From positions 119,501 to 183,500 of the forward strand of contig JAPMOS010000007.1 of NCBI GenBank assembly GCA_027972325.1: 64,000 nucleotides of DNA. The letters run 5' to 3'. A program made the position numbers and the translations under genes. The notes beneath the pieces were generated by a model, which was not told the DNA's origin, searched no databases, and was given only the letters and a program-made list of their open reading frames with translations. Shown here one piece after another: positions 16,279 through 64,000 of this stretch; the stretch's first letter is position 1, and each line of letters opens with the position of its first letter. Source of the DNA: Paratrimastix pyriformis (Eukaryota; Preaxostyla; Paratrimastigidae).

Positions 16279-17384
16279 ATGTTGGGAACACTCCGACAAA
16301 GAAATATCTTAGTAAAACCAGAATGGCTTGAACAATGTACTGCCTTCTTGCATTCACTCACCCCTCCTCCAACTCAGGCGAGCATGGTTCGCATTAGCTT
16401 AATTTACACATAATTTCAGAGTCATACGTTTCACATTCAGCTCGATCTGGTCGTCGACCAATTCCTCCATTCTGACATGCACCTGATCGCCACCCCAAGC
16501 CTCCCCCCCAATGTCGCGGCGCTTCACGGGCAAGTTCTTCAGGGCACGTTTATACTTCAGGTGCGTTACCTGAAGCTTGGGGGTCATCTCGGCCTTCTAC
16601 CGGTCGTAGATCGACGAAGTTATCGATGTTGCTGCCCCACTCTCCCAACGGTACCCATTCCATTTGCTCGACGCCACAACACAACCAACCGCACCAAGTA
16701 CTGGCGTCGGCCGCGGCCGTGCTATTCGCACAGAGTCGAACCGACTCCTCAAGGTTGCCCTCACAGATGGGACACAGATGGTGGGGGCCATGGAGCTCCG
16801 CCTCGTTCCGGCCTTGAAGCTTGATATACCATCCGGGACAAAGGTCCAACTGACTTTACGCGGTGTTTTTGACCATTTTCTCAGGTCCTGCTGACAAATC
16901 CCCTAGTGCGCCGGGGTCTTTTGATGCTCGTGCCAGATTGCACTCGCGTGTTGGGTGGCTCAGTGCAGCAGCTGAACGCCCGCCGAACGGAGGCACTGAA
17001 AAAGCTTCAAGACCAACTTGGTTGGTGGAGCATTTCTTTTTCCTTTCCGACCGGATGTTTCCTTCTTTCAGATCCCCACGCGGCGGAAGTTAGTCTCCTC
17101 AAGCAACGCCACAAAGAACGGATAGAGGTCTCATCGCATGCGATCGGCCTGTGTTTGATGGTTTTGCATTCCCTCTCCAGCGGGCCTCCCCACAGTTGCA
17201 ACAGGCTCCCTATTCATTGGAGGTGCCCCGGGAAGAGGTCTGTACTCGCATAACCCCAAAGCGATGTGATTTGTCGTCGCAGGCTTCCGCTCCCGGGAAT
17301 GGCGACCAGGGCGGCGAAGACGAAGGTGAGGTCGAGCCCACAAGCCCCCCGGCCGGAACGACAGCACCCAGCGGCGGCCATTAA
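16279..17384 (+). CDS. RMI1: RMI1-like subunit of the BLM/Sgs1-Top3 dissolvasome
   Basis: RMI1 stabilises topoisomerase III and promotes Holliday-junction dissolution with a RecQ helicase. Seven exons (16279-16386, 16441-16560, 16610-16843, 16885-17020, 17072-17127, 17181-17237, 17283-17384) join to exactly 271 codons including the TAA. The helical N-terminus has PEWLEQCTAFLH and VVDQFLHSDM. The OB fold follows: LQIDEVIDVAAP, LLKVALTDGTQMVGAMEL, PSGTKVLLTNPLVRRGLLML, VPDCTRVLGGSV. These align along the length of the animal RMI1 N-terminal region (WLEACINW, FEQWLLTDL, LQLTDG, PPGTKI, VLGGEV). The protein is short (270 aa) and lacks the C-terminal second OB fold of animal RMI1, with an acidic SPPAGTTAPSGGH end instead. 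Introns are only 41-54 nt, with donors GTTCG, GTGCG, GTCCA, GTTGG, GTCTC and GTCTG. Confidence 0.88.
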
Positions 17385-17875
17385 AAACATTCTTTTCCGG
17401 GAAAAGAGGCATGATGGGCGACGGAAAAAAAAAAAAGAAAGTAAAGGCGGCTCGGTCGCCAGAAGGGAAGGGAAGCCAAGGGACCAAGGCAAAAACACAT
17501 GCATTGGATCCTTGGGCCAACGAAGAAGCGAAGAAGCGGGGAGATGAAGACAGACAGGGACAGCCGGCACAGACAACAACACGCACCAAAAAAGAGAACG
17601 AGATGAACGGGCGCAGGGAGATTAACTTATACCTATCCACAGCGGGAACCCCTGAGCCCCCCCCCCCCCCCCAGCAGGGGTGGGCGGGGGTGGGCGGGCA
17701 AAACACAGAACGCGGGCAGGCCCGTGAGCCCCTCAATCCGGGACCCAGCAAGCGCCACCGAAGAAGGGGAGGCGGGCTGGCATGAGCGCTGGGGTCGGGC
17801 GCGGGGGCTGGCGGGGCCACTTAGGCTGGGGGGGAGGGGGTGCTCAAGCAGCGCACTGCGCAGTGCAGAGGAGGA
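17385..17875. other. intergenic region between converging RMI1 and DYRK genes
   Basis: 3' flanks of both genes. Contains an A-run (17426-17438) and a C-run (17659-17672). No further gene seen. Confidence 0.5.
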
Positions 17876-62600: not shown

Positions 62601-64000
62601 CCCCCCACCCACCCACCTACCTGGCCCCCCCCTCAGGCAGGCAGTCTCCGGTGCGCCCTGGCCCCCCCGCTGCCCGATGCCGGACAGCACTCATCTGACC
62701 CGTTCGGTTTTTGTGACTGTCTGTGTGGCTGTGTCTCTGTGTCTGTGGGGGTGGGCGCGGCGGCAGGTATCATCTCGGATCTGTTCCCGGGCGTGTCGCC
62801 GATGAAGGTCGACTACGGGGCGCTGCGGGTGTCGCTGGTGGACACCATCGTCAGCGCGGGGCTGCAGCCGCGGGAGCCCTTCCTGGAGAAGTGCACGCAG
62901 CTCTTCGAGACGACCATCCTGCGGCACGGCCTGATGCTGGTCGGGCCCACGGGGGGCGGCAAGACCCGCTGCATCCGCTCGCTGGCCGAGGCCATGCGGC
63001 GCCTGAAGGGGCGCGGGGTGGCCGGCTTCGAGGACGTCAAGCTGCACACGATGAACCCCAAATCCATCGGGCCCTTCGACCTGTACGGGGTCCTCGACGC
63101 CACCACCAACGAGTGGCGCAACGGCATCCTCACCCTGATCATGCGCAAGTGCCGGCGCGACACCAGCCCCACCAAGCACTGGGTCATCTTCGACGGGCCC
63201 GTCGACGCCCGCTGGGTGGAGGACATGAACACCGTGCTGGACGACAGCAAGAAGCTGTGCCTGTCCTCGGGCGAGGTGCTGCCCCTGACGCCCTACATGA
63301 ACATGATGTTCGAGGTGGAGGACCTCAAGCAGGCCTCCCCGGCCACCGTCTCCCGGTGCGGCATGGTCTACCTCGAGCCCGCCACCACCATCGGCCTGCC
63401 CGCCCGGGTGGCCACCTGGATGTGCCACCCCAAGCGGCGGGCCACCCTGGGGGCCCAGTACGACCGGTGCCAGGAGCTCTTCGACGCCCTCTTCGTGCCG
63501 GCCATCGAGTTCGTCCAGCGGCGCAACATCGAGATCGTGCCCACGGTCGACAGCAACCTGGCCGGGTCCATGTTCAACCTGCTCGAGTGCATGCTGGGGC
63601 CCTACGAGCCCGGCCTGGTCGAGGAGGGCACCGCACAGCAGGAGGCCCAGGAGGCCGCCGAGGCGGCCAAGGTCCCCTTGCCCACGCCCTGCCCCCCTGC
63701 CCCCATCACCTTTCCTGGGACATGCCCTCCGTCTCGCCTCGCCTGTGTCCCGATCATCATTCATCATCGGCATCCTCGGCGGCATCACCCCTGACCCCCA
63801 CCACCCCTGTCACCCCTGTCACCCCCCACCCCCAGATTGAGGAGGTGGCGGCCTCGCTGGACGCGTTCTTCATCTTCAGCATGATCTGGTCGGTCGGGGC
63901 CACGGCCAACCGCGAGGGCCGCAAGCTCTTCGACCAGTTCTTCCGCAAGCTCATCCTCACCCAGGTCCCTGGCCCATGCCCAGCAGCCATCGCCATCAGC
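53644..64000 (+). CDS. DNAH1: axonemal inner-arm dynein heavy chain, DNAH1 type (5' part)
   Basis: A motor subunit of a ciliary inner dynein arm. ATG at 53644. The N-terminus has the DNAH1-specific PRKIVIERSKRHYAAQDI, LPLEQFDNSDFDCRLPEDW, a YNLYVD-like RYHLYVDSMPTDD and MNKLIFDRH. The tail and linker follow, with PNSIEEL-like PHSIEQLVEKKEFI, WKEWRVQWKEGKFEKLNA, ALRNPGMQERHW, QTLEEWIKCQKRWMYLEPIF, LETKRKAFPRFYFLSSQDL, DILSQTKDPTRVQ and DFEWISQLRYYW. AAA1 follows with YEYLGNTSRLVITPLTDR, GAPAGPAGTGKTETVKDL (P-loop, about 61906-61960), FNCSDSLG, ACFDEFNR-like SCFDEFNRIDVEVLS and ITMNPGYAGRTELPDN. AAA2 has GLMLVGPTGGGKTRCIRSL (about 62933), WVIFDGPVDARWVEDMNTVL and ATVSRCGMVYLEP. The window ends inside AAA2/AAA3 (FIFSMIWSVGATANREGRKL). 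AAA3-AAA6, stalk and C-terminus lie beyond. Introns are many and repeat-filled; the intron 62585-62766 (donor GTCCGG) is fixed by FNG/IISDLFPGV. Confidence 0.95.
54817..54960. repeat. GTT/TTG triplet run in a DNAH1 intron
   Basis: GTTGGT, TTGTTG and TTCTTG triplets for about 145 bp. Confidence 0.85.
55650..55757. repeat. CCCATG hexamer array in a DNAH1 intron
   Basis: About eighteen hexamers, CCCATG with interspersed CCCCTG. Confidence 0.85.
57928..58080. repeat. CA run followed by ATC-type triplets in a DNAH1 intron
   Basis: CACACA tracts (57930-57972), GTC triplets, then CATCACCATC-like repeats to about 58080. Confidence 0.8.
58370..58678. repeat. ATCCGATCAGCATC and ATCATCCAACC arrays in a DNAH1 intron
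   Basis: First about six copies of CATCATCCGATCAG, then about fourteen copies of AACCATCATCC/AACCATCACCC. No spacers of unique sequence. Confidence 0.85.
59971..60228. repeat. (GGT)86 tract in a DNAH1 intron
   Basis: 258 bp of GGT with a single GGC interruption near 60191. It lies between the exon ending HKEAIEKW and the exon starting LAKLQVISQTLEEW, right before its acceptor (CTGTAG), so it is intronic. Confidence 0.92.
61577..61735. repeat. ATGCCCACCAGCCC array in a DNAH1 intron
   Basis: About nine copies of CCCATGCCCACCAG with a higher-order duplication including CATCCCTGTCACATG. Confidence 0.85.

Follow-up and report, generated by a model that had tools for sequence, protein, structure and literature searches.

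A divergent G|GUCYGY 5′ splice-site consensus in Paratrimastix pyriformis and a U1 snRNA with a matching 5′ end

The 5′ splice site (donor) of an intron is paired from −3 to +6 by U1 small nuclear RNA (snRNA), after which the ACAGA box of U6 takes the intron side. From yeast to human, nucleotides 1–10 of U1 are described as invariant (PMC4383343), a survey that recovered U1 from 227 of 230 Saccharomycotina and nine of 10 outgroup genomes reports ACUUACC as invariant among these U1s (PMC10581693), and ACUUAC is said to be kept in Giardia and in the Guillardia nucleomorph, with the motif fully conserved in the Bigelowiella nucleomorph (PMC3510501, PMC6461891). Among preaxostylans, the donors of Streblomastix have been described as A, U and G from +3 to +5 (PMC1501061), and snRNA candidates of Monocercomonoides are mentioned in the text of one study without being shown (PMC6679479). 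In the main text of the genome paper for Paratrimastix pyriformis (Metamonada, Preaxostyla), “intron” appears twice and “snRNA” nowhere (PMC10703272). Here we describe donors of this organism, in a 64,000-nucleotide stretch of contig JAPMOS010000007.1 (positions 119,501–183,500, forward strand; hereafter the window) and in its host assembly, GCA_027972325.1 (56.06 Mb, 495 contigs), together with the U1 genes of that assembly. We are highly confident that a U2-type donor consensus G|GUCYGY replaces GURAGU in P. pyriformis and that U1 has changed to match, and U1 would read these donors by pairing in the cell. Among the papers listed by our literature searches, none describes such a U1 or donor in Preaxostyla in its title or abstract.

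Introns were fixed by spliced alignment of same-species or orthologous proteins to the DNA, with an aligner written for the purpose that imposes GT..AG ends only and leaves +3 to +6 unmodelled, as a guard against circularity. The final set of 57 donors combines six introns of the window with 51 introns from eight CCT loci, alpha to theta, which were taken from PF00118 exon matches (47 in the assembly). For the CCT loci, the references were the transcript proteins GAFH01001226.1 and GAFH01001101.1 (both in EukProt, and from what we take to be the P. pyriformis transcriptome, GAFH01), same-species annotation for gamma and beta and, for the four remaining subunits, PDB orthologues. The transcript-derived proteins are identical to the spliced theta and alpha loci at 525 of 525 and 528 of 529 residues, the annotated P. 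pyriformis T-complex protein 1 subunit gamma (putative) matches the spliced gamma locus at 561 of 561, and an annotated P. pyriformis protein matches the beta locus at 528 of 528. One doubtful CCT alpha intron (1061–1286, minus-strand locus coordinates) was left out; there, the transcript differs from the assembly close to the acceptor, by roughly one G, and four bases upstream of the donor as aligned stands a GTCTGT.

An earlier note on the window, made from its letters alone, had proposed that donors read GTYYG instead of GTRAGT, with pyrimidines at +3 and +4 and the +5 G usually kept, and the 57 homology-fixed introns bear this out. GTYYG opens 49 of them and GTCYG 46, and none begins GTRAG, whereas the counts for 637 decoys (the other GTs in the same introns and their 60-nucleotide flanks) are 52, 25 and 15, respectively. 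Position +3 is C in 51 donors, T in four and A in two; +4 is T in 31, C in 24, and A and G in one each; +5 is G in 52; +6 is T in 28, C in 22, G in four and A in three; and −1 is G in 49. The consensus is better stated as G|GTCYGY than as GTYYG. The 18 transcript-supported CCT introns read GTCTG (eight), GTCCG (five) and, once each, GTATG, GTTCG, GTATA, GTTTG and GTCGT, the last being the intron of doubtful register excluded above.

When any donor dinucleotide was permitted across the eight CCT loci (with AG still required), 42 of 46 introns begin with GT, the same as in the GT-only run, and the remaining four begin with TC (two), GC and AC. No second GT–AG register giving an identical spliced sequence was found for a set of 45 introns or for one of 37. 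The RAG of U2-type introns at +3 to +5 is lacking throughout the 57, and the introns are of that type by their GT..AG ends alongside canonical U2, U5 and U6 (see below). U12-type donors are RUAUCCUU; no GTATC donor occurs among the 57, and AT–AC ends, which lie outside the reach of the GT-only aligner, did not emerge from the any-donor run. No branch-point consensus was found, with YTRAY present within the last 50 nucleotides of only eight of 45 introns. The GTATG and GTATA donors belong to two transcript-supported introns (113–172 in one CCT locus; 282–340, minus-strand coordinates, in the CCT alpha locus) and may have survived from an ancestor with GUAUGU-like donors.

Words were also counted over 302 kb, on both strands, with expectations from Markov models of order 3 and order 2. 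GTCTGT occurs 285 times against 88–108 expected, GTCCGT 194 times against 95–103, and GTAAGT seven times against 7.5–13.6. Of all 256 words of the form GTNNNN, GTCTGT ranks second or fourth, amid repeat-like words, and repeats may contribute part of its excess. GTGAGT (76) and GTATGT (41) exceed what order 3 predicts (37 and 16), with no clear excess under order 2 (97 and 37). A self-trained gene finder converged on one G|GTCYG profile whether its initial donor model was neutral or GTAAGT; it overpredicts introns (1,354 in 302 kb) and was used as a neutral check only.

The earlier note had also suggested that U1 may carry compensating purines at positions 5 and 6, and that a U1 covariance model be run over the assembly. 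The Rfam model (RF00003) finds eight genes, aligned to model positions 1–166 with 51–60 bits (E 7e-13 to 4e-10), and the predicted purines, A5 and G6, are present in every one. The 5′ end reads AUACAGACCU in all eight, compared with the canonical AUACUUACCU, and forms part of a longer start, ATACAGACCTTG, that they also have in common; in place of the canonical ACUUACCU each reads ACAGACCU, and the exact canonical 5′ end ATACTTACCTKG has no match in the assembly. In the register of the covariance alignment AUAC and ACCU are in place, so that the change is U5U6 to A5G6, and these two positions face donor +4 and +3, respectively. Copy L001, the only one folded, forms the four-way junction (cloverleaf) and stem-loop 4 (z −3.4), and seven of the eight genes are at least 96% identical. 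The heptamer CCCATAA lies at −59 or −60 in all eight, and in the other snRNA copies checked it lies at −60 (U2, one copy), −66 or −67 (U6, four) and −53 or −54 (U5, three) from the model start. This common element, which resembles the plant upstream sequence element, argues for genuine snRNA promoters and for a fixed U1 5′ end. A second, canonical U1 is rejected within the search made, given eight variant genes out of eight and no exact match to the canonical end. The U1-70K profile PF12220 gave no match in the assembly, and its controls likewise gave none; zf-U1 (PF06220) gave a single match (G000:C86:24809–24916), presumably WBP4-like rather than U1C, and no U1C turned up with this profile.

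Compared with canonical U1, the variant makes more Watson–Crick pairs at 50 of the 57 donors, fewer at one and the same number at six, and the mean duplex energy is −8.7 kcal/mol for the variant vs −3.9 for the canonical sequence. At +3, C would pair with G6, and at +4, U with A5, while C4 and A3 still pair with +5 G and +6 U; a donor fully paired to this U1 would be AG|GUCUGU. Each donor was also ranked against its local GTs (the 637 decoys) for all 16 dinucleotides at U1 positions 5–6. On the homology-fixed donors AG comes first (0.959), GG second (0.948) and the canonical UU ninth (0.861), and in an earlier ranking with 51 donors, the doubtful one included, AG was again first and UU again ninth. 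The U1 5′ end is, then, complementary to the donors of its own species on the homology-fixed set, and more weakly so in an ab initio set considered below.

An altered U6, which the earlier note had offered as another possible carrier of recognition, is rejected on the four U6 genes found, all identical and canonical, with AUACAGAGA. Seven U5 genes were found, with the CGCCUUUUACUA loop in the three copies examined, and U2 gave 10 matches, nine of them full length, with GUAGUA in the copy examined. The U1 5′ end AUACAGACC and U6 AUACAGAGA have their first seven bases, AUACAGA, in common, so that either RNA can pair with UCUGU at donor positions +2 to +6, a sequence exactly complementary to U6 ACAGA. 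For yeast, pairing of donor UGU (+4 to +6) with U6 ACA has been described (PMC4383343). We propose that the unchanged ACAGA box, able to pair with all of +2 to +6, eased the change in U1: donors would have drifted toward complete U6 complementarity first, with the U1 genes following, and U1 would now hand the donor over, like for like, to an identical sequence in U6. The assembly also encodes a METTL16-type protein (PF05971 match at G000:C332:38824–39153, minus strand), in a frame that contains FDFCMCNPPFF, of which CMCNPPFF presumably marks METTL16, and SNRNP27K (PF08648 match with RQYMNRKG, the M of which we take to be human M141). The METTL16-type gene is retained though +4 is A in just one of 57 donors, against the association of METTL16 with +4 A in yeast.

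A more far-reaching form of this proposal is that the U1 5′ end is a copy of the ACAGA box, with the site read twice and the usual conflict between the preferences of U1 and of U6 removed. U1 A5 stands at the exact place of the methylated A43 of U6, and with METTL16 encoded, that enzyme might also methylate U1; eight genes could have allowed variant and ancestral U1s to coexist during the shift of the introns. We find this extension plausible without quite favoring it.

Several observations weigh against a U1 matched to its donors. Eight of the 57 donors lie outside GTYYG, and the full UCUGU is present in only 12. Where +4 is C (24 of 57), U1 A5 meets it in an A–C mismatch, with no Watson–Crick pair, and +6 C (22 of 57) is likewise an A–C mismatch with U1. 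It should be noted that U1 accounts for +3 and +5 but, at +4, for the T half alone, with C there no more than tolerated. The U1 genes score below the Rfam gathering score of 69.5, and we infer that they produce a working U1, expressed and with this exact 5′ end. In the neutral ab initio set (185 introns with long flanking exons, surely including false ones), GTCCG outnumbers GTCTG by 62 to 13, and AG ranks fourth at U1 positions 5–6 (0.654), after GG (0.680), GA (0.659) and GU (0.657), with UU at 0.614; this set speaks against AG as the unique optimum. Finally, +4 C is found in 10 of 12 window introns vs 17 of 44 in the CCT genes (Fisher p 0.0095, C against T). We suggest that C opposite A is tolerated and driven by base composition, with conserved genes closer to the optimum; a modified U1 A5 would be an alternative account of +4 C.

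That C-rich composition or misplaced intron ends imitate GTYYG altogether is, in our view, barely credible. The GC content of the window is 68%, intron GC is higher with +6 C than with +6 T (p 0.006; the difference at +4 is not significant, p 0.19), and in the neutral ab initio set C is abundant at +3, +4 and +6 to +8. However, GTYYG is found in 52 of 637 adjacent decoy GTs compared with 49 of 57 introns, the ends are fixed by transcript-derived proteins, and U1 matches. Composition bias as the source of the consensus is thus rejected by the decoys and the transcript-supported introns, and what it may set is the C:T ratio at +6, perhaps also at +4. A more serious competitor, although still an unlikely one, has U6 in the lead: the unchanged ACAGA box would mainly choose the donors, and U1 would have drifted along or become dispensable. 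U1-associated proteins are reported to be nearly absent from the metamonads studied (PMC6679479), and both the canonical sequence of all four U6 genes found and the exact complementarity of UCUGU to ACAGA would fit. Against this, the eight U1 genes retain promoter and 5′ end, with the high identity of seven of them noted above, and drift would not be expected to yield the best of 16 dinucleotides on the homology-fixed donors. The −1 G (49 of 57), moreover, is known to be recognized by U1 and U5, whereas the ACAGA box does not read it.

The frequency of +4 U (31 of 57, with A in one) would also be consistent with a loss of METTL16 as in Saccharomycotina, where the N6-methyladenosine at U6 position 43 is gone and +4 A has turned to U. 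We consider this very improbable and reject it, as the gene is present: the protein with CMCNPPFF is encoded, as is SNRNP27K with RQYMNRKG. In addition, the route described for yeasts left U1 unchanged (PMC10581693), and it leaves +3 C unexplained.

Within the window, spliced alignment against solved orthologues gives one dynein intron and five DYRK introns, and the any-donor run gives the same six. The former, in an axonemal dynein heavy chain gene aligned to PDB DHC2, lies at 62585–62766 (plus strand; donor GTCCGG); the gene finder translated a long poly-valine run within 58822–61000 (plus) of this gene, a GTN-rich repeat that is probably intronic. The DYRK kinase introns, on the minus strand, lie at 19497–19686 (GTCCCC, aligned to DYRK1A), 19804–19937 (GTCCGC), 20099–20308 (GTCCGC), 20714–20899 (GTCCGT) and 21148–21248 (GTCTGC), the last close to the reference end, at protein position 3. 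The dynein intron, 20099–20308 and 19497–19686, which had been proposed in the earlier note (the last as a GTCCCC donor from 19686), are recovered exactly by this alignment, with +3 to +6 unmodelled.

Six further introns come from that note, and for these we used Pfam continuity, in which the spliced peptide is scored across the junction vs the unspliced open reading frame (ORF). In the RMI1-like OB fold (16844–16884, plus; GTCCAA), an RMI1_N match of 77 bits runs unbroken over the junction; in the UPF1-like helicase (49675–49859, plus; GTCCGG, joining FQG|REK), AAA_12 scores 59.5 bits over the junction vs 29.3 for the downstream-exon ORF alone; and in the PAP2/PDCT-like gene (33344–33395, plus; GTCTGT), PAP2_C scores 34.5 bits spliced vs 17.8 in the upstream ORF, while for AtPDCT1_2, which overlaps PAP2_C, the longer upstream ORF gives the higher score (47, vs 37.7 for the shorter spliced peptide). 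The other three are probable introns: 1774–1867 (minus; GTCCGT), with GT..AG ends in an LSM14-like gene (FDF match of 13.9 bits, under the cut-off); 52873–52949 (minus; GTCCGT), with a weak fn3 match over the junction of an fn3-like gene (17.8 bits, under the cut-off); and 42003–42049 (plus; GTCCGA), with continuity of frame only and no meaningful Pfam support. All eight coordinate pairs quoted in the earlier note have GT..AG ends on one strand, and its statement that homology and frame fix these ends stands for RMI1, UPF1-like, PAP2, dynein and DYRK, weakly for fn3 and LSM14, and for the frame alone at 42003–42049. Together, the 12 window introns have C at +3 in all 12, C (10) or T (two) at +4, and G at +5 in 10.

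A U1 changed to match its donors, if true, would be a natural double substitution in a 5′ end that textbooks hold invariant, and thus the evolutionary counterpart of compensatory-mutation experiments. It makes testable how such a large number of introns can switch partner and the cell survive, and which of U1 and U6 moves first; an intermediate U1 with AUACAUACC, together with GUAUGU donors, in relatives would mean stepwise co-evolution. In practice, gene finders tuned to GTRAGT and U1 models tuned to ACUUACC may overlook such lineages.

Among known systems, the canonical U1 of yeast, human and Giardia resembles that of P. pyriformis in its cloverleaf, Sm-like site and pairing of 5′ end with donor, but keeps ACUUAC where P. 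pyriformis has AUACAGACCU. The GUAUGU donors of Streblomastix, yeast and Giardia likewise have +4 U and +5 G, matching U6 ACA, but have A at +3 where P. pyriformis has C; in Giardia and yeast U1 is described as unchanged, with a U–U pair at the GUAUGU donor (PMC3510501). It has been suggested that a change of U1 position 5 to A could compensate for +4 U; no such change is reported for the yeasts covered there (PMC10581693). In Cyanidioschyzon, an snRNA change also faces +4, at the central A of ACAGA, but it sits in U6, and U1 is reported absent (PMC10581693, PMC11732430). Fritillaria borealis shares a genome-wide donor change, although its two U1 versions are described as having identical 5′ ends and the proposal made for it is based on U2AF and N6-methyladenosine (PMC13326754). 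The diplonemid S. specki offers a natural change of the U1 5′ end, in an alternative C-rich U1; there, however, it is a second U1 beside the canonical one, and both are reported to pair with the donors comparably (PMC12621601), whereas all the U1 copies found in P. pyriformis carry the change and show better pairing.

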